Origin: Streptomyces sp. RKAG293
Lineage (GTDB): Bacteria; Actinomycetota; Actinomycetes; Streptomycetales; Streptomycetaceae
Assembly: GCF_023701745.1 (NCBI RefSeq)
Contig: NZ_JAJOZB010000001.1
Coordinates: 4,842,501 to 4,906,500 of the forward strand
Length of the DNA: 64,000 nucleotides
Reading direction: 5' to 3'
Shown: piece by piece, positions 22,461 to 37,531 of the stretch
Position numbering within the stretch: position 1 is the stretch's first letter
How the letters are laid out: every line of letters starts with the position of its first letter
Translations under genes and position numbers: made by a program
Notes under the pieces: generated by a model
The model's input: only the letters and a program-made list of their open reading frames with translations
The model's database searches: none
Told to the model about the DNA's origin: nothing

Positions 22461-25347
22461 ATGTTCGCTTGTTGCTCGACCACTGATTTGAGGCTTGCCT
22501 TGCCCTACGCGATTCTCGGGCCGTTGGAGGTCCAGTCCTTCGGCCGACTCGTTGAAGTGGCCCGTCCGAGGCGACGTGCCGTACTCGCTTTTCTTCTCCT
22601 TCACGCCAATCGGTGGGTCAGCACCGAGCAACTGGTCGACGGGCTCTGGGGCGAGGAACCGCCGCGTACCGCCCGTGCCCAGATTCACACAGCGGTTTCA
22701 GCACTGCGCAGCGGGCTACCGGACGAGCTTGCCGGAGGGCTGTCCTCAGAGGGGTCCGGATACCGGCTGCGCGTGGCGGAGGGGGACCTTGACTCAGCGG
22801 AGTTCAGTCGACGGTTCACCGCCGCACGAGAGTTCGCCGAGAGCGGCGAGAAGGAGGAGGCGGCCCGGTTGTTGCGGTCCGGCCTGGGCCTCTGGCGTGG
22901 GGATGCGCTGACCGGGCTGGAGGCGCCCTTCGCGGGACCGGCCCGCGCTCGGTTGGAGGAAGAACGCTTCGTCGCATACGAACTGCTGGCAGACCTTGAG
23001 ATGAGCTTCGGAAGGCACCATGAGCTGCTTCCGGAGCTCACCAACCTGTTGAACCAGTACCCGGCCTGTGAGTCGATCGCGGAGCGCCTGACCGTGGCGC
23101 TCTACCGCAGTGGACGGCAGGCCGACGCTCTTGCGGTAGTGCGCAGGCTGCGCAGACTGCTAGCCGACGAGTACGGCCTGGACCTTGGGAAGCGCCTCGT
23201 GGAGCTTGAGGCTGCCATTCTGAGGGGTACCCTCCCGCCGCAGTCTTCGCCGCAGTCTTCGCCGCAACCGTCCGGGCCCGCTGTGCCAGTTCGGCCCGCC
23301 CCGGTGAGCGACAGCCTGGCCGACCGCGAGCTCCGAATTCATCGTCCTGCTCAGCTGCCCCGGGCGACAGCAGGATTCGTTGGGCGGGGTGCAGAGTTGG
23401 CCAAGCTCGGAATTCTGGTCGGCTCCGCACCGGGTGACACCGGCGTCGCGCTGATAAGTGGTCCGGCCGGGGTGGGCAAGACGTCGTTGGCGCTCCGATG
23501 GGCCCACTCCAGGGTCGGCGACTTCCCTGACGGTCAGCTGTTCGCAGATCTGCACGGCTACGATGCGGTGGACTCCGAGGTCCCCGGCCGGGTGCTGGAA
23601 CGGTTCCTGGTGGCGCTGGGCGTCCCCGGGTACGAAATCCCCGCCGACATGGCGCACCGCGAGGACATGTATCGCTCCCGGATGGCCAACCGCCGCATGT
23701 TGGTGGTCCTCGACAACGCACGGGACTACCAGCAGGTTTGGTCGCTTCTTCCCGGGACGGCACAGTGTCTCGCCCTCGTGACCAGTCGCGGAAAGATGGG
23801 CAGGCTGGTGACGGAGACAGGTGCCGTGTCCATCCCGCTCGGGCTGCTGACGCTGGAGGATTCAGTGGAGGCACTCGGTCAGATTGTCGGGGCTCCGCGG
23901 GTTGAGGCTGCCCCGGGTGCAGCCCGGGATCTGGCCCGGTTGTGCGGCGGTCTGCCGCTCGCTCTGCGGATTTCTGCGGTACGGCTGGTCGAGGAACCAA
24001 TGATCCCAGTAGCTGTGCTGGTAGCCGAGCTGACCCCGGAGGAGGGAAGGCTGGCCGGCCTGGGTCTGCCGGGTGAAGATCACACGGTGTCCCGGGCCCT
24101 GGATCACACGTATGCGCGGTTGACTGCGGAGCAGGCCCGGCTGTTCCGGGTGCTCAGCCTCCATCCCGGAGCGAGCTTGGGTTCCGCAGCCGCCGAGGCA
24201 GTCGCCGGGCGGCAGGAAACGCTTGGCGGGACATCTTCGGTGCTGGTGCGGCAGTCGCTTCGCGCGCTCGATGCGGTCCATCTGCTCGATCAGACGGAGC
24301 ACGACCGATATTCGATGCACGATTTGGTGCGGCTGTACAGCCGGAAGGTGGCGCCGTTGTCACCGGCCGAGGAGGAGCTAGCCATGGATCGGCTGTTCGA
24401 CTGGTACATCAGTGCCTCAGCCTCAGCTCACGAAGTCCTCACTCCCGGTGGCGCGAGGGTTGTACCGGATCTTAAGCATCTCTCGTCGGGTCTGTCGCCG
24501 TTCGAGGACCAGGACGAGGCGCTGCGCTGGTTCGACCAGGAGATAGAGGCTGTGGCGTCACTGATCCGGCTGGCCGTGGCGCGGCGTGATCACCGCGTGG
24601 TGTGGCAACTATCGTCCTCGATATCCACGTATCTGATGAGGCGCCACCGTCTCGATCTGCTGGTGGAAACCCAGCAGCTGGGTGAGCACGCGGCGCGAGA
24701 GGTTGGGATGGAGTTGGAGGCTGCGGCGATCGCCGCCAAACCTGGGAATCGCCTACTCCACGCGGCTCGATCCTCGGAGTGCGGACCCGTTCGAGCGGGC
24801 AATTGCGATCTCCGTCCGCCACGGTGAGACCCGGCGGGCTGCCGGAAATCGGCTCGATCTCGGGAATCACCAACTCAATCTCGGGCTGCTGGCCGAGACC
24901 GCACGTGTCGGCGTGGCGGCAGTGGAATCCGCGCGGGACCTCGACTACCGCTGCATGCCGGCATTGGCGTTGAGTAATCTCGGCCTGACCCGATCGAACT
25001 TGGGCGCCCACGAGCAGGCGCGTCCGTGGCCATCTGGTCCGGCCCCGGTGCGGCTCGGCGCGGGGGAGGACTGGCTTGCCCTCAGCCGTGAGGCGCTCGC
25101 CGGCGCCCGCCGTGCCGGCAATCCACTGCTGGTGGGCGAGATACCGGACCAGATCGGAATCACGTTCACCATGAGGGGCTCGATTGACGAGGCACGTGAT
25201 GCCTGGCGCGAGGCTGTGCAGGTGTTGTCGGAGGTCGGGAGTTCCACGGCGGACGAGGTGCGGGCCGAACTGCGAGGGGTCCCCGACTCGCTCCCCCGGC
25301 GCGCCGCAGACGATCAGGCGGACGTGGCGGAGTCGCCCAGCAGGTAG
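22461..25347 (+). pseudogene. AfsR/SARP-family regulator with a frameshift
   Basis: The first frame (22461-24827) encodes an OmpR-like DNA-binding domain (YAILGPLEVQSFGRLVEVAR), BTAD and an NB-ARC ATPase with Walker A ISGPAGVGKTSLALRWA and Walker B MLVVLDNARDY. At about 24735-24745 the TPR code shifts frame and continues to 25347 (NLGIAYSTRL, LGNHQLNLGLLAETARVG). One extra base near GCCAAACCTGGG explains it. The N-terminal 750 residues could still act as a DNA-binding activator, as many SARPs lack the tail. TTG 22488 or 22500 are alternative starts. It is the likely local regulator of locus 1, with which it converges. Confidence 0.75.
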
Positions 25348-25832
25348 ACCAGCTCGTCCCAGCCGATGGTGACGGCTCCCGCTATCGCCCCGGCACCCGC
25401 CGCAGCTCCCCACACGGGCAGGGTCTCGGCACCGCCGGGTAGCAGCCCGGCAGCCAACGCGGCGGCTGCGAGCAGTGCGTTGCGCGTCACGAATGCGGCG
25501 GTACTGCCCGTCCCTGGAGTGGTAGCCGAGCTGAAACAGCGGCAGGCAGCGGCCCGCCCCGCCTGGACAGTGGCCACCGTAAAGGCGACGAGGAGACCAA
25601 GCACGAGGGCGGCTCCCGCCTCCCGCAGGGTGAACAACAACAGCACCGCGGCGAGCTCGCTGATCACCACTCCGATCGCGGTGGGTGTTCGGAACCGGGC
25701 CGGGAGCCAGACGAAGTCGTCGAGCCCCGCCGTGAACCTGGTCATCGTCGCGCGGCTGCGGCACTTGCTGATCGCCGCGACAGCGAAGACCACGGCCAGC
25801 ATGACCCGGGCGGCCAGCTCGGTGACGGTCAT
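25314..25832 (-). CDS. MauE/DoxX-like membrane protein
   Basis: The 172-aa protein has about four membrane segments with AVVFAVAAISKCRSRATMTRF at the start and a cytosol-side or lumenal pair CRCFSSAT. MauE-type proteins assist disulfide formation or electron transfer to thioredoxin-like partners. In this locus it lies with a thioredoxin-like protein and a cysteine-rich peptide, which supports a role in oxidising or maintaining Cys residues. It overlaps the convergent AfsR-like frame by 34 bp. Confidence 0.75.
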   Translation of the reverse strand: MTVTELAARVMLAVVFAVAAISKCRSRATMTRFTAGLDDFVWLPARFRTPTAIGVVISELAAVLLLFTLREAGAALVLGLLVAFTVATVQAGRAAACRCFSSATTPGTGSTAAFVTRNALLAAAALAAGLLPGGAETLPVWGAAAGAGAIAGAVTIGWDELVYLLGDSATSA

Positions 25833-25935: not shown

Positions 25936-27756
25936 TCACCGGGGTTCCTCGGACAGCGCGTACTGGTATCCCTCGGCCTGGGCGGCGAAGAGTTCTGCGT
26001 ACTGGCCGCCGTGTTCGATCAGCTGCTCATGCCTGCCCTGTTCGACGACCTGCCCGCCGGCGAGCACTACGATGGTGTCGGCATCGCGGAGTGCCGAAAG
26101 GCGGTGGGAGATCAACAGACTGGTCCGTCCGGCGCGATGGCGGGCCAGGGCCTGGTGCACGCGCTGCTCGGCAAGCGGGTCGAGACCGGAACTCGGCTCA
26201 TCGAGGACCAGCAACTCGGCGTCCTCCCGAAACAGCGAGCGGGCCAGTGCGACCCGCTGCCACTGGCCGCCGGAGAGCAGCACCCCCTTCTCGTTCGAGG
26301 CGTCCAGGAAGATCCGGCTGAGCATGGTGTCGTATCCTCGGGGCAATCCGGCGATTGTCTCGTCGATGTCGGCTCGAGCCGCGGCGGTGCGAACCCGTTC
26401 GAGGTCATCCATCAGCTCCGGCGAGCCGATGCCGATGTTGTCCCGGGCGTTCATGTCGTACGTCATGTAGTCCTGAAAGGTGGCCCCGATCCGGCGGCGG
26501 AGTTCGTCCACCGACAGAGTTCGGATGTCCTGCCCGTCCCACAGGATTCGCCCGCGTTCGGGATCGTAGAAGCGGCACAGCAGTTTGACGAGGGTGCTCT
26601 TGCCCGCGCCGTTGGCACCCACCAGCCCGACTGCCTGTCCATACGGCAGGATGAGATCGAGGCCTCGCAGCACCCACGGGTCGTCAGGTTTGTAGCGGAA
26701 CCACACGCCATCGAACTCGATGCCTTGGCGCAGTGCACGCGGCACCAGCTCGCCGCTGGGCAGATCGGCGGGCATCCGCAGCAAAGTGAGGTAGCGGGCA
26801 AACAGCTGGAGTGCCTCGTCTGTGCGGCCCAGCTGCATCAGCACGGAGGAAAGTGCCCCCTGGATCGCTGCCACCGCTGCGGTGAAGAGGGTCATCTCAC
26901 CTAGGGTGACGCCTCCTCGTAGCACCTGCCGGGCTATGACGACCCCGGCGACCCCGGCGACCGCGGCGCCGAGCACGGCCAGGGCCGACTGGACGGCGGC
27001 GTCGCGCCGGGTGACCGCCAGGGTGGCGGCACTGGTCTGTCGCAGGTTGTCCATCGCCCGGCGATGGATCAACGGGCCGGCGCCGAACAGTCGCACCTCC
27101 ATGACCGCCCGACGGTCCGTCAGCAGCGCCCGGTAGAAGAACTGGCGCCGTGCGGTGGCCATCATGGACTTCGTGGTGTCGGCCTGCTGCCGCGCCAGCC
27201 GCAGTTGACCCGCGACCGAGACCGCGACAGTGCCTACCAGCAAGAGCCCCATCGGCGGCCAGAGCGCAAGGACGGCGCCCAGGAACCCCGCGACGGTAAT
27301 ACTGCTGCGTACGGTGGCCAGCAGAAAGTCGAGCACCTGGCGGGGAGCATTCTGTGCGGACTGCTCGGCAAGCCTGATGGTGTCCTGAGTCTCCGGGTCC
27401 TCGAAAGGCCGGAGGCTGCGGAAGTCGTTGATACGGCGGTACAGGAGGTCTTGTGCCCTGAGGTTGACGGCCTGCCCTGTCGTGGCCGTTGTCAGGGCGG
27501 AGACCGAACTGAGGACAGCGGACAGGCCGGCGAGCGCAGCAACGCCCGCCGCCAGAAGGCTTACCCGGCCGCTCTCCGCGCCGGGCGCGGCCAGATCGTC
27601 GACCAGCAGCTTGCCGAGGTAGGCGGCCCCCGCAGGGACGGCACCGGAGAGCAAAGCCAGCAAAAGCTGGCCGACCATTCCCATCGGGGCGGCATGCCAG
27701 CCCAGCTGGAGTGCTCGGCCCGTGACTCGCAGACGGGCCGCCGCCCGCGAGGTCAC
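25936..27756 (-). CDS. ABC exporter with fused membrane and ATPase domains
   Basis: The 606-aa protein starts at GTG 27756, overlapping the stop of the thioredoxin-like gene (GTGA). Residues 1-330 form a six-helix exporter domain. Residues about 350-590 form an ATPase with Walker A GLVGANGAGKSTL, Q-loop TFQDYMTYDM, signature LLSGGQWQRVALARS and Walker B ELLVLDEPSSGLD. It lacks the C39 peptidase domain of bacteriocin exporters, so leader removal must come from other enzymes, such as the S26 or M50 proteases nearby. It most likely exports the mature peptide of locus 1. Confidence 0.88.
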   Translation of the reverse strand: MTSRAAARLRVTGRALQLGWHAAPMGMVGQLLLALLSGAVPAGAAYLGKLLVDDLAAPGAESGRVSLLAAGVAALAGLSAVLSSVSALTTATTGQAVNLRAQDLLYRRINDFRSLRPFEDPETQDTIRLAEQSAQNAPRQVLDFLLATVRSSITVAGFLGAVLALWPPMGLLLVGTVAVSVAGQLRLARQQADTTKSMMATARRQFFYRALLTDRRAVMEVRLFGAGPLIHRRAMDNLRQTSAATLAVTRRDAAVQSALAVLGAAVAGVAGVVIARQVLRGGVTLGEMTLFTAAVAAIQGALSSVLMQLGRTDEALQLFARYLTLLRMPADLPSGELVPRALRQGIEFDGVWFRYKPDDPWVLRGLDLILPYGQAVGLVGANGAGKSTLVKLLCRFYDPERGRILWDGQDIRTLSVDELRRRIGATFQDYMTYDMNARDNIGIGSPELMDDLERVRTAAARADIDETIAGLPRGYDTMLSRIFLDASNEKGVLLSGGQWQRVALARSLFREDAELLVLDEPSSGLDPLAEQRVHQALARHRAGRTSLLISHRLSALRDADTIVVLAGGQVVEQGRHEQLIEHGGQYAELFAAQAEGYQYALSEEPR

Positions 27757-28313
27757 ACGGTCTCCCTGGACCGCACCGGCCGGCCCTCCGGGAGCGACAG
27801 TCCCACGCCGTCGAGAGTGTGACCGGCGTGGGTGACCACCCCATCACGCAGCCTGAGCAGAGTGGGGTAGGAGGCGACATTCCCGAACGCGGCGGCGACC
27901 TCCGTCTCGTCCGCCAGCACGGCGACCTCCCCTACCGCACTGAGCTTGGCCGCGATCACCTCCGAGCCCGCCTCACCGACGACGAAGAAGAGTGGCTCGG
28001 TGCCGCCGGTGCGCAGCAAGCCGCCGTCACCGTCGAGTGATTCGATCAACTGGGCACACGGACCGCAGCCCACCATCACGAAGCCCACGAATCGCTCACC
28101 GGCCGCGACGTCAGTTCTGGCGACCGGTCGGCCGGTGACGGTCTCGGCGCGGAACTCGCCTACCGACAGGCCTACGGGCGGCAGCTTCCTACCGCCTTCG
28201 CCCGAGCCGGCCTCGATGTCCTTCACCCGGCGGATGACGGCGAAGGTGAGAGAGAGGTTGAGCGCTGTGGCGATCCCGAGGACCGCGGCGAGCACGCACA
28301 ACGTGACAAGCAT
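27753..28313 (-). CDS. Membrane-anchored thioredoxin-like protein
   Basis: The 186-aa protein has one N-terminal membrane helix (LVTLCVLAAVLGIATALNLS) and a TlpA/thioredoxin-like domain with the redox motif CGPC (FVMVGCGPCAQLIESL) and the cis-Pro region ASYPTLLRLRDG. It should face outside the membrane and act as a thiol oxidoreductase. It is first in the minus-strand operon with the ABC exporter and the MauE-like protein. Together with the eight-Cys peptide across the divergent promoter, this points to disulfide handling during export. Confidence 0.85.
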   Translation of the reverse strand: MLVTLCVLAAVLGIATALNLSLTFAVIRRVKDIEAGSGEGGRKLPPVGLSVGEFRAETVTGRPVARTDVAAGERFVGFVMVGCGPCAQLIESLDGDGGLLRTGGTEPLFFVVGEAGSEVIAAKLSAVGEVAVLADETEVAAAFGNVASYPTLLRLRDGVVTHAGHTLDGVGLSLPEGRPVRSRETV

Positions 28314-28787: not shown

Positions 28788-29294
28788 ATGATTGAACCTC
28801 CCGTACCCATGAATCTCATCATCTCCATATCCATTGCATTCCTTGCGCTTCTCGCTGCGGCACGTTGCATGATATTTCTCGTCATCGTGCGAGGTCGGAG
28901 CATGGAGCCCCAGTACTACGACGGGGATCGCGTACTGGCCGTCAAGGGCGGGCTTTTCGGCCGCCCGAAAGTGCACGACGTGGTCGTCGTGAGGCGCTCG
29001 GGCGGTGGAGACCGTGGTCGCACCCCTGGACTGTTCATCAAAAACGTCGTGGCCGCACCGGGCGATCGGGTGCCCGAGCTCTTCGTCGGTGTCACCGGCG
29101 CCGCCGCAGGTGACAGCACCCCCGAAGGCCGATACCTGGTGCTGGGCCGCCATCGGGCCAGCGAGGACTCCAAGCAGTGGGGCTACGTGGCGGGCGCCGA
29201 AATCGTCGGCAAAGTGCTGCGCCCGCGAGCCGGACAGGCTGTCGGCTCCGCGCGGCCGCAAAACCGTCCCGCAGATTTCCGTCGCGAGGCCTGA
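28788..29294 (+). CDS. S26-family signal peptidase
   Basis: The 168-aa protein has one N-terminal membrane helix (IISISIAFLALLAAARCMIF) and the type I signal-peptidase core. The catalytic Ser is S38 in RGRSMEPQYYDGD, and the catalytic Lys is K85 in FIKNVVAAPGD. A final motif includes YLVLGRH. Signal peptidases cut after small-x-small motifs. The next gene encodes a peptide with ASA just before its Cys-rich part, an attractive substrate. ATG 28809 is an alternative start. It opens the plus-strand operon of locus 1. Confidence 0.85.
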   Translation: MIEPPVPMNLIISISIAFLALLAAARCMIFLVIVRGRSMEPQYYDGDRVLAVKGGLFGRPKVHDVVVVRRSGGGDRGRTPGLFIKNVVAAPGDRVPELFVGVTGAAAGDSTPEGRYLVLGRHRASEDSKQWGYVAGAEIVGKVLRPRAGQAVGSARPQNRPADFRREA

Positions 29295-29358: not shown

Positions 29359-29526
29359 ATGACCCGCAACCTCGGCGACCGAATTCTGACCGCCATGATC
29401 GGCCGGAAGACTGCCTCGGCCGGCTGTGCTCCCGACTGCGAGAGGATTCCCTGCCGCTACGGCAACCAGTTCTGCTACAAGACGTGCTGCTTCACGCCTA
29501 ACTGTGGCTATTCCTGCAGCAACTAG
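29359..29526 (+). CDS. 55-aa cysteine-rich precursor peptide (eight Cys)
   Basis: ATG 29359 lies seven bases after GAAGGA. The product starts MTRNLGDRILTAMIGRKTAS. Its second half has Cys at 23, 27, 32, 39, 43, 44, 49 and 53, including a CC pair, with Tyr, Pro and Asn between them. Cleavage after ASA (residues 19-21) would release a 34-aa core with eight Cys, enough for four disulfides. The leader has no hydrophobic core, so normal Sec targeting is doubtful. The context of signal peptidase, ThiF enzyme, M50 protease, thioredoxin-like protein and ABC exporter marks it as a RiPP-like precursor. I do not recognise a known family. Confidence 0.82.
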   Translation: MTRNLGDRILTAMIGRKTASAGCAPDCERIPCRYGNQFCYKTCCFTPNCGYSCSN

Positions 29527-29560: not shown

Positions 29561-29686
29561 ATGTCTGACGAGAACTCGTGCACCGAGATCATCGAGGTGC
29601 CGGCAGGGGATGCCGCTGCCGATCTGATCGAGATCCGGCTGCTCGACAGGATCGAGACGATCCGTGTGAAGGCTTCCTCGGGCTGA
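29561..29686 (+). CDS. 41-aa acidic peptide ending in SSG
   Basis: ATG 29561 follows GAGAGG by six bases. The product begins MSDENSCTEIIEVPAGD, continues with an acidic Leu/Ile-rich stretch (LIEIRLLDRIETIRV) and ends KASSG. It has a single Cys. Because E1/ThiF enzymes activate the C-terminal carboxylate of a protein or peptide, often Gly, this peptide is a plausible substrate or carrier for the ThiF enzyme encoded next. It could equally be a second precursor. It is 34 bp after the Cys-rich peptide gene. Confidence 0.72.
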   Translation: MSDENSCTEIIEVPAGDAAADLIEIRLLDRIETIRVKASSG

Positions 29687-29761: not shown

Positions 29762-30838
29762 ATGAAAAACCCAATGGTGAAAGAAGAGCATCTTCCCTAC
29801 CGGCATGAGGACGGCACGGTCCGCATCGGAGGCGAGCTCTACGGGTTGGCCGCCGCTATCCGTGATCCACACGGGTGGATCTGGGCCTCACTCACCCTGA
29901 TGGACGGTCGGCACACCGAACCGGAGATCGCCGAACTGCTCCGTCTTCAGTACCCCGCCCTGACGCCGGAGACCGCTGCCGGACTGGTCGCGCAGCTCAT
30001 TGCCACTGGCTACTGCGAGGACGCCGCTGCCCGCATTCCGGAGGAACTCAGCGCTCACGAAATGGCGAAGTACAGCCGAAACCAGGCATTCTTCCGACGT
30101 GTCGGCCTGAATCAGGAACAGGGGCCCTGGGACGCCCACATCGCCCTGAGTAGATCGCGGGTCCTCATCCTCGGACTCGGCGGCACGGGAAGCCACGCGG
30201 CCTGGTCGCTCGCCGCTGCTGGCGTCGGCCACATCCACTGTGTGGACGGCGACACGGTGGAACTCAGCAATCTGACCAGGCAGGCGCTATACACGGAGGC
30301 CGACCTCGACCGCGCGAAAGCCGAGGTCGCGGCGGAAAAGCTCCGTGGTGTGAACTCCGCTGCCGAGGTCACCTTCGACCTCGGCAGGGTGGAGACCCAG
30401 GAGCAGCTGGCGCACCTGCTTGCAGGGTATGACGTGCTCGCCCTCTGCGCGGACGAACCCGACTCGGAAACGATCCGTGGCTGGGCCTCGGCCGCCTGTG
30501 CCGAGGCCCGCATCCCATGGGTCGGAGGTGGATACAACGGCCCGCTGGTGACCGTTGGCGTCTTCGGCCCGGACGGTCCCTGTTTCCAGTGCCTTGCCGC
30601 GGGCGAGGAGGCCCTGATCCCGCCAGGATCGACCCCACCCCATCTGGGTGGTCCGGGAGTGATCGCCCCGTCCGCCGCGATCTCCGGCCACTTGGTCGCC
30701 TACGAGACCATCGCACTGCTCACGGGGATCTCACGAAACCCGCCGGGGTACGTGCGCGGACTCAATCTCATCTCCCCGGACGATCACGTCCACGTACGGC
30801 ATCCGGCTCTGCCGGAGTGCGGAAACTGCAACGCATAG
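29762..30838 (+). CDS. E1/ThiF-like adenylating enzyme with PqqD-like N-terminus
   Basis: The 358-aa protein has an N-terminal domain (about residues 8-95, HEDGTVRIGGELYG...LLRLQYPALTPETAAGLVAQL) like PqqD/RRE peptide-binding folds. An E1 Rossmann domain follows, with the ATP motif GLGGTG (138-143), acidic VDGDTVELSNLTRQ and KAEVAAEKL. Four Cys form a zinc site: C274/C277 (CFQC) and C353/C356 (CGNC). Related enzymes such as MccB and PaaA activate RiPP precursors as acyl-adenylates. GAGGAG precedes ATG 29762. It is probably the central modifying enzyme of locus 1. Confidence 0.85.
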   Translation: MKNPMVKEEHLPYRHEDGTVRIGGELYGLAAAIRDPHGWIWASLTLMDGRHTEPEIAELLRLQYPALTPETAAGLVAQLIATGYCEDAAARIPEELSAHEMAKYSRNQAFFRRVGLNQEQGPWDAHIALSRSRVLILGLGGTGSHAAWSLAAAGVGHIHCVDGDTVELSNLTRQALYTEADLDRAKAEVAAEKLRGVNSAAEVTFDLGRVETQEQLAHLLAGYDVLALCADEPDSETIRGWASAACAEARIPWVGGGYNGPLVTVGVFGPDGPCFQCLAAGEEALIPPGSTPPHLGGPGVIAPSAAISGHLVAYETIALLTGISRNPPGYVRGLNLISPDDHVHVRHPALPECGNCNA

Positions 30839-30858: not shown

Positions 30859-32163
30859 ATGGCGGACACCGAAGCACACTGTGTCGTATTCCATCCTCTG
30901 GGATTCCGGGCTGACGGCCGCCACTGGATCGTCGGACGGAGCGACACCGGACCGTATGTGACGGTCCCCCAGGAGGGTATGGCGGCCATCCGGCTGCTCA
31001 AGGACGGCATGTCGCCTCCCGAAGTGCAGCAGCGAATGCTGAACGAATCGGGGAAGAGCATTGACGTCGAACAGTTCGTCAGGTCCATGGCCGCGCTCGG
31101 ATTCATCCGCTCCATGGACGGGCACGGCATCGACTCCCCGCCGGCCGCGCGCCCGACGCTTCCGCGCGTTCGACCCGGGCATGTCCGGTGGATGCTCAGC
31201 CCCGTTCTCCACGGGGTGCTCGTCACGGTTGCCCTGACCGGTCTGATCATGATGGCAGCCAGACCCGAGCTGCGCCCCCACTGGGGCGATCTGCTCTGGA
31301 GTGATCACGGAAGTCCGGCCCTGCTGGGGGACGCGGCCCTGACCTGGCTGCTGATCCTCTTTCATGAACTCGCCCACCTGTTCACCGCCAGGGCAGCGGA
31401 CGTTCCCGGCGTCATCAGGATGGGCACGCGTCTTCAGTTCCTCGTGGTTCAGACGGATGTCTCAGGGGTCTGGCTACGCGAAAGGCCGACCCGGATCGCG
31501 GTGTATCTCTCCGGCATGATGCTGGATCTCACTGTGTTCGGCGGTTGCATCCTCCTGGAGGCGGCAACCGGCTCCAGCCGACTTCTTTCGGTCGTGGCTG
31601 TCACGGAACTCGGCGCAGTCGCAGCTGAGTTCATGGTCTTCATGCGGACTGACCTCTACTTCCTGCTGCAGGACCTGCTCGGCTGCCGCAACCTGTACCG
31701 CGATGCCCTGCAGTACTGCCAGCACGTCCTGACCAGGTGCCTCGGCCGGGCGACGTCCTCGCCACTCTCCGGACTGGACCGCGTCGAGCGGCGCAGCGTG
31801 CGCACCTACGCAGTGCTCATGGCCATCGGTTCCGCCGCGTGCGTGCTACTGGTCTTTCTGGGCTGGACGAACGTGACGCTGGTGCTGCTGGCGCACTCGG
31901 CCGACGAATTCCTCACCGCGCCGAACTGGCTCTCAGTCGCGGACGCGCTGGCAACGACATTGATGCTGATAGGGGTCCAGGCGCTGTGGGCCAACGCATG
32001 GTGGCGCAGGCACGGCACCGCTGTCCGGAACAGCTGGAGGCCGTCCGGGCGGCCCCGGCGGCGAGGCAAACATGACGGTATCCCACTTCCCACTGGGCAT
32101 CCGACTCACAACCCGGAAGGCCCCGAGGGCTCGTGGCAGCCCCGGGTCTCCGAAGGCAGCTGA
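30859..32163 (+). CDS. M50-family metalloprotease with PqqD-like N-terminus
   Basis: The 434-aa protein has a soluble N-terminal domain (residues about 10-85) that resembles PqqD/RRE domains, then six or more membrane helices. The zinc motif HELAH (residues 169-173) lies in a helix, and a later Asp in RTDLYFLLQDLLG fits the third ligand of site-2 proteases. M50 enzymes cut within membranes or remove leaders. Here a role in precursor cleavage, immunity or signalling is inferred from its place directly after the ThiF gene. ATG 30859 was chosen for the short gap. Confidence 0.8.
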   Translation: MADTEAHCVVFHPLGFRADGRHWIVGRSDTGPYVTVPQEGMAAIRLLKDGMSPPEVQQRMLNESGKSIDVEQFVRSMAALGFIRSMDGHGIDSPPAARPTLPRVRPGHVRWMLSPVLHGVLVTVALTGLIMMAARPELRPHWGDLLWSDHGSPALLGDAALTWLLILFHELAHLFTARAADVPGVIRMGTRLQFLVVQTDVSGVWLRERPTRIAVYLSGMMLDLTVFGGCILLEAATGSSRLLSVVAVTELGAVAAEFMVFMRTDLYFLLQDLLGCRNLYRDALQYCQHVLTRCLGRATSSPLSGLDRVERRSVRTYAVLMAIGSAACVLLVFLGWTNVTLVLLAHSADEFLTAPNWLSVADALATTLMLIGVQALWANAWWRRHGTAVRNSWRPSGRPRRRGKHDGIPLPTGHPTHNPEGPEGSWQPRVSEGS

Positions 32164-34382: not shown

Positions 34383-34465
34383 TCCCAGGCAAGGCCGGCC
34401 GTGGGACGGGACGTAGGGCCAGTCCTGGCAGAGCCGGATGAAAATCCCCGGTGAGGAGGACTGTG

Positions 34466-35521
34466 ATGGAACGCGTACGCCTTCGGCAGAGGGTCATGAA
34501 GTTCATCGATGGTGACCGTATAAAGCTCATCATGCGGGATCGGGGGATCTCCTTGCCGGACAGTCCGGCGAATCGCCGGGTTGTCGCGCAGCTGGCAGAA
34601 GGCGCCAGTAGACGTGAGGTTCTTGATGGATCCTCTGGAATCTCTGCCGAGGACCTAGAATCCGCCCTTGGAGCCCTGGATGGAATCAGGGCACTGGAAC
34701 GGTTGGATGTTCCGCACGATTTCACGGATGCCGATCTGGAGCGGAACTCCCGTACGGTCGAGTTTCTTTCGGCGGAAGAGAATGGCCGCGGGAATCGATT
34801 CGAGATGCAGGCCCGCGTCCGCGACGCCCGGGTCCTGCTGATCGGCACCGGTGGCCTCGGCAGCTGGATCGCCTACGGCCTGGCCGCAGCCGGGGTGGGT
34901 TCGCTCCGGCTGGTCGACCCCGACGTGGTGTCCCTGTCCAACCTCAACCGCTCGATCCTCTACGACGAGGAGACGGTGGGGCGGTCCAAGGCCGAAGTGG
35001 CACGCGAGCGCCTGACGGCTTTCGCGCCCAGGCTGCGGGTGGAGTGCTGCCTTGAGTACGTCACGGCGCCCGATGACGTTGCCCGTCTCGCCGAGGGCTG
35101 TGACCTGATCATCAACGTGGCGGATCAGCCCCACCGCACGATCCGGCGGTGGGTCGCTGCGGGCGCCCTGTTGGGCGGCGTTCCGGTTCTGGAGGCCGGT
35201 GGCGGCCGGGTCGGACCGTTCTTCCTTCCCGGTGTGTCCAGCTGCAGCGGCTGCCTCCAGGCATCCCAGGCGGAGCCCGGCAGCCCGCGCGACGTCCTCA
35301 TGGAGCAGGACAACGTTTTCCCGGGCCGTTCCGCAGGGTCTCTCGTCGCCTATCCGGCCGCCGAGGCGGGCGTCATTGTCCTGGAGGCGTACCGCTTCCT
35401 GTCGGGAATGGCGGAGCCGGCCACCAGGAACGCCTACCTCGCCGAAGGAAAGAGCTTCTTCGATGGCAAGCGCATTGAGCTTCCTCGCCACCCGCGCTGT
35501 CGCGTGTGTGCCGAGAGATGA
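34466..35521 (+). CDS. E1/ThiF-like adenylating enzyme
   Basis: The 351-aa enzyme starts at ATG 34466, six bases after GAGGAGG. An N-terminal winged-helix-like part (residues 1-115) precedes the E1 domain with ATP motif GTGGLG (127-132), LVDPDVVSLSNLNRS and KAEVARERL. Zinc-site Cys are C260/C263 (CSGC) and C345/C348 (CRVC). It is related in plan to, but clearly different from, the locus 1 enzyme. The two 20-aa peptides follow directly, so they are its likely substrates, by analogy with MccB (microcin C7) and PaaA (pantocin A). Confidence 0.86.
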   Translation: MERVRLRQRVMKFIDGDRIKLIMRDRGISLPDSPANRRVVAQLAEGASRREVLDGSSGISAEDLESALGALDGIRALERLDVPHDFTDADLERNSRTVEFLSAEENGRGNRFEMQARVRDARVLLIGTGGLGSWIAYGLAAAGVGSLRLVDPDVVSLSNLNRSILYDEETVGRSKAEVARERLTAFAPRLRVECCLEYVTAPDDVARLAEGCDLIINVADQPHRTIRRWVAAGALLGGVPVLEAGGGRVGPFFLPGVSSCSGCLQASQAEPGSPRDVLMEQDNVFPGRSAGSLVAYPAAEAGVIVLEAYRFLSGMAEPATRNAYLAEGKSFFDGKRIELPRHPRCRVCAER

Positions 35522-35579
35522 ACTTCCGGAGGGCGTCGGCCTTCCGGAGAGAATTCATAAGGGCAGGAGGTGTTTCAGC

Positions 35580-35642
35580 ATGGAGATCGTCGAGGTCGTG
35601 GCCGAGGAGTTCGAGGCCCTCAACAACATGGAGTACGCGTAA
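35580..35642 (+). CDS. 20-aa precursor peptide, copy 1
   Basis: ATG 35580 lies downstream of AGGAGGTG. The peptide is MEIVEVVAEEFEALNNMEYA: very acidic, no Cys, with an EE pair and an NN pair. A near-identical gene lies 124 bp downstream with the same ribosome site. Being duplicated, translated from strong sites and placed behind a ThiF enzyme, it looks like a RiPP precursor or a carrier peptide. Canonical microcin C precursors end in Asn, and this one ends Tyr-Ala. Confidence 0.72.
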   Translation: MEIVEVVAEEFEALNNMEYA

Positions 35643-35703
35643 TTCGATGGGGTGCTGCCCTTGAGAATTTCTGCACCGATATGGCGGGAGGAGGTGTTTC
35701 AGC

Positions 35704-35766
35704 ATGGAGATCGTCGAGATCATGGCCGAGGAGTTCGAGGCCCTCAACAACGTTGAGTACGCGTAA
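35704..35766 (+). CDS. 20-aa precursor peptide, copy 2
   Basis: ATG 35704 lies downstream of GGAGGAGGTG. The peptide MEIVEIMAEEFEALNNVEYA differs from copy 1 at only three positions (V6I, V7M, M17V), all conservative. Selection on the peptide is suggested because the changes keep charge, the EE and NN pairs and the YA end. A large hairpin at 35811-35849 follows it. Confidence 0.72.
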   Translation: MEIVEIMAEEFEALNNVEYA

Positions 35767-35810
35767 TGCGAAGGGGCACCGCCCCTGAAAATCACCGCTC
35801 GATGTGATGT

Positions 35811-35849
35811 GAGGGGTGCCGTGCGCCGTCGAGGCGCAGGGCACCCCTC
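35811..35849 (+). terminator. Nested hairpin after the 20-aa genes
   Basis: GAGGGGTGCC (35811-35820) pairs with GGCACCCCTC (35840-35849), and inside it GCGCC pairs with GGCGC. It sits between the small genes and the ribosome site of the hydrolase. As in locus 1, it could limit read-through so that peptides outnumber enzymes. Confidence 0.65.
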
Positions 35850-35875
35850 ATCCGCTCTTCCAGGAGGAGATCCAC

Positions 35876-37531
35876 GTGGCCCGGAGCCGAAGCCTCACCG
35901 CCACTCCCGCGGTGGTCGAGGGGGCGCAACGTGCCCGAATCGTTAAGCGCGCGGTCGGATCGTCGCAGGCCACGGCGACTGTCCTTGTCGCCCAGGGCGA
36001 CGACGTTCTACTGGAAGGACTCATCGGCCCAGAGGGATCGGGTCTGCGGATGCCCGCCGGCCCGCACGATGACGTAGAGCTGCACGGCCTGCTGGCCGAC
36101 GGCCGCGCCGTGCTGTCCACTCTCGACGGGACCTTCCGTACCCTGCGCGCTGTACAAAGGCACGAATCCGAAGTCCTTGCGACTCTGGATGAACCTGGCC
36201 AGGTCGTTGTCCAAGGAAGATTTGTTTACCATGCAGGCCCTGCCGGCGTGACGCGCATCACGCCCGGAGAAAGTAGGAAGCGGCAGAGCTTCCCCTTTTC
36301 CGTATCGTCCTTTGCGGCGAGCGATGACGGCCGGGTGATCGCTGGAATCAAAGGATCTGGTAGCCGGTCAGAAGTAGTTCTGGAAAGCCGACTTGAAGCC
36401 CTTCGCTCACTGCTGAAGGCGTCGGATTCGGCCGTGCCGACTGAACTCACGCTCTGTCCGGACGGCTGTCATCTGTCGGTCGCCGTCCGTACGGTCGAAG
36501 GCCGCGAAGCCCATATCTTCGACACCGCGACCGGCTCCCGGCTCCGCATCGTGACGGGTGTCGGCCGGACTGCTGTCCTCATCTCCGGCTGCACGTTGCT
36601 GGCAGTGGACGATTCCTGGCCCTATGCCAAGGTCCTGGAGGTGCCCTGCGCCGGCGGCACCATGGACTCCCACACCATCGACGCCTCCGTCCTGGCCCTC
36701 CTCGAAGATGCCAGCGGGCCGCTGGTCCACTGCACGCGCCCGGACCACCCGCCGTCAGTGGTCCGCCTCGCCGAACTCATCGACCAGGCGGGCAGCCAGG
36801 ATCCGCCCCGGCACCACGCGGTCACCACTCGCTGGGGAAGCCTGCGCGTCCTGACCGTCCCTGCGGCCGATCCGGTCGGCGACATCGTCATGCTGCACGG
36901 AGGTCCGTTCGGTGTGTGGATCCCGCGCTGGGATCCCCAGATGCAGCTCCTGACGGCGCACGGTTATCGCGTCCATCAGGTGGAAGCCCCGTACACGGCC
37001 TCCTTGCGCCGCGCCCACACCCGCTTCGTACCAGGCGACTTCGGCAGCAAGGACGTCGAGAGCATCACCGACGCCGTCACCGCACTGGCCTCCCAACGGC
37101 CCCTGCTGATGTACGGGTTCAGCTACGGAGGGCTCCTCGCCGCCCGAACCTCCGCCCGGCTCCCCGGCATCGTGAACGGCGTTTTCCTCCAGAGCGCTCT
37201 GTGGCGCAGCCAGGACCTGCAGCGGCTGATCGATGACGGGGTGCCTGCCCCGGGGGATCTGCGCTCGTTCCTCGCGCACGCCTTTCCCGGGGGACAGGTG
37301 CACCTGCCCGAGGTGCGGCTGCGCGCCGAGCTGCCGACCGCAGTCGTGCACGGGACCGATGACCTCATCGCTCCCGTCGATCTGGTCGAGGCAGCGTGCG
37401 CCGCGGCTCCTGAGATCGTCCTGACCCGCCTGCCCGGCGAGGGGCACATACCCCGGCGGGCTTCATCCGTGGTCCAGGCACTCCACGCAATGAAGACATG
37501 GCTCCAGCACTGCGAAGGCACCTTGCGATGA
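35876..37531 (+). CDS. Alpha/beta hydrolase of prolyl-oligopeptidase (S9) type
   Basis: The 551-aa protein starts at GTG 35876 after AGGAGG. Residues 1-320 look like a degenerate beta-propeller. The C-terminal part is an alpha/beta hydrolase with oxyanion motif MLHGGPFGVW, nucleophile Ser in YGFSYGGLL, Asp in VHGTDDLIAP and His in GEGHIPRR. S9 enzymes cut short peptides, which fits trimming, release or detoxification of a 20-aa product. Its TGA overlaps the next ATG (ATGA, 37528-37531). Confidence 0.82.
   Translation: MARSRSLTATPAVVEGAQRARIVKRAVGSSQATATVLVAQGDDVLLEGLIGPEGSGLRMPAGPHDDVELHGLLADGRAVLSTLDGTFRTLRAVQRHESEVLATLDEPGQVVVQGRFVYHAGPAGVTRITPGESRKRQSFPFSVSSFAASDDGRVIAGIKGSGSRSEVVLESRLEALRSLLKASDSAVPTELTLCPDGCHLSVAVRTVEGREAHIFDTATGSRLRIVTGVGRTAVLISGCTLLAVDDSWPYAKVLEVPCAGGTMDSHTIDASVLALLEDASGPLVHCTRPDHPPSVVRLAELIDQAGSQDPPRHHAVTTRWGSLRVLTVPAADPVGDIVMLHGGPFGVWIPRWDPQMQLLTAHGYRVHQVEAPYTASLRRAHTRFVPGDFGSKDVESITDAVTALASQRPLLMYGFSYGGLLAARTSARLPGIVNGVFLQSALWRSQDLQRLIDDGVPAPGDLRSFLAHAFPGGQVHLPEVRLRAELPTAVVHGTDDLIAPVDLVEAACAAAPEIVLTRLPGEGHIPRRASSVVQALHAMKTWLQHCEGTLR

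Follow-up and report, generated by a model that had tools for sequence, protein, structure and literature searches.

The 41-Residue Open Reading Frame

The 64,000-bp stretch of Streptomyces sp. RKAG293 DNA analysed here (the window) carries a gene for a 41-residue peptide next to a gene of the ThiF family, which raises the question of whether this peptide is a carrier, an accessory of a neighbouring cysteine-rich peptide or a precursor modified by the ThiF enzyme. An acidic open reading frame (ORF) of 41 residues with one cysteine and an SSG end, which an earlier note had placed just before the ThiF gene, was confirmed at positions 29561–29686 of the forward strand. The ORF comprised 41 codons with an ATG start and a TGA stop, was preceded by a Shine-Dalgarno-like AGAGG site 6 nt 5' of the ATG, and translated to MSDENSCTEIIEVPAGDAAADLIEIRLLDRIETIRVKASSG. 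The peptide contained nine Asp/Glu and four Lys/Arg residues, a single cysteine (Cys7) and the C-terminus SSG, and was encoded once in the source genome. The ORF began 34 bp 3' of an ORF for a Cys-rich peptide (29359–29526), and a gap of 75 bp separated its stop codon from the ATG of the ThiF gene (29762). Neither small peptide matched NCBIfam or Pfam in a scan of the window peptides, and the same scans extended to six relatives gave no real family.

Two clear homologues of the 41-residue peptide, located beside ThiF orthologues, were found by searching 394 genomes of the family, and five further homologues were located with the ThiF orthologues as a guide. The pattern [VILFM]x[VILM]Rx[LM][DE]xxET, followed by 6–14 residues and a stop codon, occurred 21 times in 518 kb of locus sequence. 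All of these occurrences were in ThiF loci; for 20 of them the distance to the ThiF gene was a few hundred bases at most, and for one it was 2.6 kb. First-order Markov control sequence (10.4 Mb) yielded no occurrence. Because homologues sharing the internal block lay shortly before a ThiF orthologue in each of seven further genomes and the pattern was absent from the control, the ORF is a genuine coding sequence and not a chance reading frame.

Conserved Leader and Variable Core

The conserved part of the peptide was the internal segment I23-E-I-R-L-L-D-R-I-E-T33 (29627–29659, forward strand), which had the general form I-x-I-[RK]-x-L-[DE]-x-x-E-T among 52 non-redundant homologues. Leu28 (–4), Glu32 (0) and Thr33 (+1) were invariant in all 52 peptides, Arg or Lys at position 26 (–6) and Asp or Glu at position 29 (–3) were present in every one, and positions 23 and 25 were hydrophobic with the exception of one Ala. 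The segment after Glu-Thr consisted of 7–12 variable residues rich in Ser, Asn and Gly; in the window it was IRVKASSG (29660–29683, forward strand). Judged from this alignment, the peptides have the leader-and-core architecture of precursors, with a fixed leader and a varying core, and the 41-residue peptide belongs to a widespread family of small actinobacterial peptides with a common leader and a differing tail of about eight residues.

The C-terminal residue was Gly in 16 homologues, Asn in 14, Ser in 7, Ala and Thr in 4 each, Cys and Arg in 2 each, and Gln, Glu and Met in 1 each (n = 52). In the eight closest relatives, the window included, the peptides ended with ASSG, ACNN, HQDG, SIVR, QIDS, QIDT, AVAR and AVAR, and thus with the residues G, N, G, R, S, T, R and R. 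The terminal Gly, to which the earlier note gave a possible special role and whose invariance was to be judged by alignment of homologues, was therefore not conserved, an outcome that the note itself had named as refuting its idea; it appears to be unimportant, and the varied C-termini rule it out as the reactive group. The role proposed for the cysteine was not borne out either, since no Cys was present in six of the eight closest peptides, and Cys was rejected as the reactive residue. Cys occurred in the core of 15 of the 52 homologues; the window core had none.

These residues bear directly on a ThiS/MoaD/SAMP-like sulfur carrier, in which the terminal Gly would be adenylated and thiocarboxylated. 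Such a role would fit the ThiF-family partner and the terminal Gly of this one sequence, but it is extremely improbable: the peptide has only 41 residues, no Gly-Gly terminus and a leader-and-core architecture, its C-terminal residue varies widely in the 52 homologues, contrary to an invariant Gly-Gly, and the NCBIfam and Pfam scans gave no ThiS or MoaD family match. The homologues lacking a terminal Gly led to rejection of this role.

The ThiF Enzyme and the Membrane Protease

The ThiF gene (29762–30838, forward strand) encoded a 358-residue adenylyltransferase with a RiPP recognition element (RRE-ThiF), whose nearest solved relative, N-terminal region included, was PaaA (PDB code 5ff5). Profile residues 3–323 were aligned with PaaA residues 7–347, including the recognition region; the Pfam PaaA-like_N match (3.3e-4) was below the family cut-off, and the N-terminal recognition domain was assigned by sequence homology. 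The catalytic part was also aligned with MoeB and, over the whole length of the catalytic domain, with MccB. Residues Arg173, Lys186 and Asp231, which correspond to the ATP and metal residues described for MccB and EnfB (PMC12250964), were kept in all 114 relatives. Three of the zinc-type cysteines were likewise kept in 114 of 114, and the fourth was kept in 113 with one gap. A single-sequence AlphaFold model of the enzyme had a mean pLDDT of 35.6. The conserved residues and the alignment to PaaA point to a putative active adenylyltransferase that would bind the leader.

The alignment with MccB suggests a microcin C-like alternative, in which the C-terminal carboxylate would be adenylated and the nucleotide kept, giving a peptide-nucleotide whose variable core decides uptake or target. 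Asn, the C-terminal residue of 14 of the 52 homologues, is in keeping with this alternative. However, the C-terminal residue is neither Asn in the window nor invariant, the N-terminal region of the enzyme was aligned with PaaA and not with MccB, and the neighbouring genes examined included none recognisable as a tailoring or immunity gene of the microcin C type, which makes such a product rather unlikely.

The next gene (30859–32163, forward strand) encoded a membrane metalloprotease with an HELAH motif, a likely leader protease. It matched daptide_HExxH below the cut-off (1.8e-8) and Peptidase_M50 also weakly, and a PqqD-like region at its N-terminus was read from the residue pattern. The HExxH motif was intact in all 56 full-length homologues, and a gene for an HExxH membrane protease was present in at least 57 ThiF loci despite short flanks. 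Such a metalloprotease is the usual third partner of the ThiF enzyme and the peptide; in other branches of the family, genes for DUF6879 or an M14 carboxypeptidase were added.

The gene in the window showed two features by which RiPP precursors are recognised, a short ORF beside a ThiF gene whose product has a recognition domain at its N-terminus, and a fixed leader followed by a variable core. Because the leader is conserved, the core is variable, the gene is linked to the ThiF and protease genes and the adenylation residues are intact, the 41-residue peptide is very probably a RiPP precursor that serves the adjacent RRE-ThiF as its dedicated substrate.

Distribution of the Peptide–ThiF Unit

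A total of 116 distinct ThiF loci were collected by class-level and family-level searches and from further regions. A motif peptide was located beside the ThiF gene in 91 of them, mostly at a distance of 200 bp or less. The remaining 25 had no motif match within the flank examined; one of four such loci inspected (L088) had a variant motif peptide. A single-protein scan of genome contigs returned one distant locus. In the ThiF tree, the window enzyme fell within an eight-member clade (SH-aLRT 99) inside the larger family, and the Lys-containing core was present in every member of that clade.

Of the 35 genomes from the same genus, 20 carried ThiF genes with 44–48% identity that adjoined divergently transcribed ORFs of 24 residues, for example MASTIVIRQLDKKETTGDSNSNGT. 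Within one genus the core hardly varied among about 20 genomes (20/35), an indication of a physiological role. In L090, L143 and L148, a single ThiF gene was accompanied by two motif peptides whose cores differed, and in L023/L092 (7009–9676) the motif peptide MKIQIRKLERIETTVACACGSCSDC, whose core is Cys-rich, lay beside a diverged ThiF (34%) and a protease.

A second, diverged ThiF gene was observed in the window at 34451–35521, with 35% identity over the catalytic part; no close relative of it was found in 190 family genomes. It was followed by tandem ORFs of 20 residues with good ribosome sites at 35580–35642 and 35704–35766 (MEIVEVVAEEFEALNNMEYA and MEIVEIMAEEFEALNNVEYA) and by an alpha/beta hydrolase gene at 35816–37531. 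The region 34451–37531 has the appearance of a ThiF RiPP locus in its own right.

Literature searches with the leader strings and with ThiF, M50 and Streptomyces returned no description of the precursor family. The peptide family is apparently undescribed, and RRE-ThiF RiPPs as a kind are already known. Since 27,400 RRE-ThiF candidates were given in PMC12150305, the present enzymes probably lie within that network, without being described there. No actinobacterial enzyme is among the ThiF-like RiPP enzymes named in a review (PMC12250964).

The Cysteine-Rich Peptide as a Separate Module

The Cys-rich peptide of 55 residues (29359–29526, forward strand), read as a precursor of its own, was accompanied by genes assigned by family scans and co-occurrence: an S26 signal-peptidase-like protein (28788–29294, forward strand), a TlpA-like thioredoxin-fold protein (27753–28313, reverse strand) whose homologue in L054 matched AhpC-TSA/Redoxin, an ABC exporter (25936–27756, reverse strand) and a MauE-like membrane protein (25314–25832, reverse strand; PF07291, 7.6e-17). 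Homologues of the Cys-rich peptide were found with TlpA-like, MauE, ABC and S26 genes and with no ThiF gene in the 17–20 kb regions of L054–L057, and within the family sample none of these genomes belonged to the set carrying a close ThiF. Conversely, the regions of L050 and L051 contained the peptide, ThiF, protease and a SARP-type regulator but lacked a Cys-rich ORF.

Both peptides were encoded in six of the eight loci of the window clade, and in the window only 34 bp separate one ORF from the other, as would be expected if the 41-residue peptide acted in trans, by guiding the ThiF enzyme to the Cys-rich peptide or by being joined to it. This role is nevertheless very unlikely, given that the leader motif is missing from the Cys-rich peptide, which is kilobases away from the ThiF–peptide unit in L047–L049 (the L047 match being weak, E 0.002) and was found neither in L050 and L051 nor among the 20-kb loci that represent the wider family, while its module occurs with no ThiF in L054–L057. 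Because the ThiF–peptide unit is usually found with no Cys-rich peptide, and the Cys-rich module is found with no ThiF, the two peptides do not appear to be donor and acceptor of one required reaction. Thus, one half of the two-peptide idea was retained, as the 41-residue peptide is most likely the ThiF substrate or second precursor (91 of 116 loci), whereas the carrier or donor role with respect to the Cys-rich peptide received no support. The two may still be linked as one cluster, for example as signal and product.

In L054 (8586–13018), L055 and L057, the Cys-rich peptide, TlpA-like, MauE, ABC and S26 genes formed a compact ThiF-free cluster, and the leader of the Cys-rich peptide ended with ILPK..A.A, followed by many cysteines. 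These peptides are possibly a disulfide-rich secreted family absent from NCBIfam and Pfam.

Proposed Modification of the Core

The ThiF-type RiPP enzymes known so far begin by adenylating a carboxylate of the peptide, which another group then attacks: GrcB joins Glu to Cys, IndF joins the C-terminal Ile to Trp, and EnfB forms a C-terminal imide (PMC12250964, PMC12150305). For the precursor in the window, we infer leader binding, adenylation, cyclisation and cleavage. The leader element IEIRLLDRIET would be held by the N-terminal recognition domain of the ThiF enzyme, leaving the last 7–8 residues (IRVKASSG) as the core. With ATP, the enzyme would adenylate a carboxylate of the peptide, either that of the C-terminus or that of the invariant Glu32, and a nucleophile would displace AMP to give a dehydrated cyclic peptide. 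The HExxH membrane protease would then cut off the leader.

The common part in the group of eight was I-[EQ]-[IV]-R-[LM]-L-D-x-I-E-T-I-x-x-K, and in each peptide exactly four residues came after the Lys. The invariant Lys (Lys37 in the window), four residues from the C-terminus, would be the likeliest nucleophile in this clade and would give a small lactam; the fixed distance fits a five-residue lactam between Lys and the C-terminal carboxyl group, with Glu32-to-Lys37 as the alternative linkage. A Lys lactam in the clade of eight is proposed tentatively, with the odds against it. Because Lys is not conserved outside the clade and the residue at Glu+5 varies among the homologues (Ser 15, Arg 10, Lys 6, Cys 5 and Leu 5; n = 52), there is no universal nucleophile in the family. 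A macrocycle from Glu to residue +5 was rejected as a universal rule; Lys, Ser or Cys occupied this position in 16 of 20 peptides, but Arg in 10 and Leu in 5 of the 52.

ThiF-like RiPP enzymes use one activation step to make different bonds, and few have been assigned so far. With its fixed leader, its 50 or more distinct peptides and the natural exchange of Lys, Ser, Cys and Arg in the core, the precursor family provides ready substrates for establishing which residue the enzyme activates and which one makes the attack.

Regulatory Neighbours

A SARP-type regulator gene with BTAD and NB-ARC domains (22461–24827, forward strand) was homologous to SARP genes located directly downstream of the metalloprotease gene on the same strand in L049–L053, which encoded BTAD and NB-ARC and, in L050, also TPR. 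The window ORF ended at 24827 without TPR repeats, and an overlapping frame (24682–25347) had weak TPR matches; a frameshift or sequencing error in 22461–25347 is possible. In L050 (132–11589) and L051, the peptide–ThiF–protease–SARP unit adjoined an oligopeptide-permease operon with SBP_bac_5, and typA/bipA was also present in L050.

A mature peptide that controls the neighbouring SARP and, in the window, the Cys-rich bacteriocin-like module would be compatible with the precursor assignment. The positions of the SARP and permease genes, and cores that are short and hydrophilic and hardly differ among about 20 genomes within a single genus, agree with such a signal; SARPs are, however, common in these genomes, and DUF6879 or M14 genes take the place of the SARP in other branches. 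A signalling role is thus conceivable but doubtful, and the SARP and permease context is a lead, not a result. BldK in Streptomyces imports a 655-Da signal peptide (PMC9640686). A large actinobacterial RiPP family of ThiF-cyclised pheromones of about eight residues, rich in Ser, Asn and Gly and sensed via oligopeptide permeases and SARPs, to which the BldK-imported signal could belong, is a decidedly unlikely extension.

Comparison with Known Systems

The HExxH membrane protease was weakly similar to the daptide membrane protease (NCBIfam NF041824, 1.8e-8), but it fell below the family cut-off and no other daptide gene was identified. Microcin C7 (MccA/MccB) shares the catalytic domain and the zinc-type cysteines, whereas its precursor has 7 residues against 41 in the window and its terminal Asn is not conserved here, where Gly is found.

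The pantocin A system (PaaP/PaaA; PMC12250964) was similar in its short precursor with an N-terminal leader and in the RRE-ThiF, whose alignment with PaaA begins in the recognition region. However, its Glu-Glu-Asn core is absent from the window (IRVKASSG) and from all 52 homologues, and no 2OG oxygenase was recognised among the window neighbours. Furthermore, the window ThiF keeps CxxC...CxxC zinc-type cysteines that are not aligned in PaaA, and the window system has a membrane HExxH protease as a partner.

A short precursor and an RRE-ThiF are also shared with GrcA/GrcB, which forms a Glu-Cys thiolactone, and with IndA/IndF, which joins Trp to the C-terminal carboxyl group (PMC12250964, PMC12150305). 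Their leaders differ from the one described here, and the window core contains neither Trp nor the Cys nucleophile of a GRC-type thiolactone. The ind system also has a protease partner, of the M16 type in contrast to the M50-like protease of the window. The likeness proposed here to both systems lies in the reaction itself, in which a side chain close to the C-terminus would attack an activated carboxylate.
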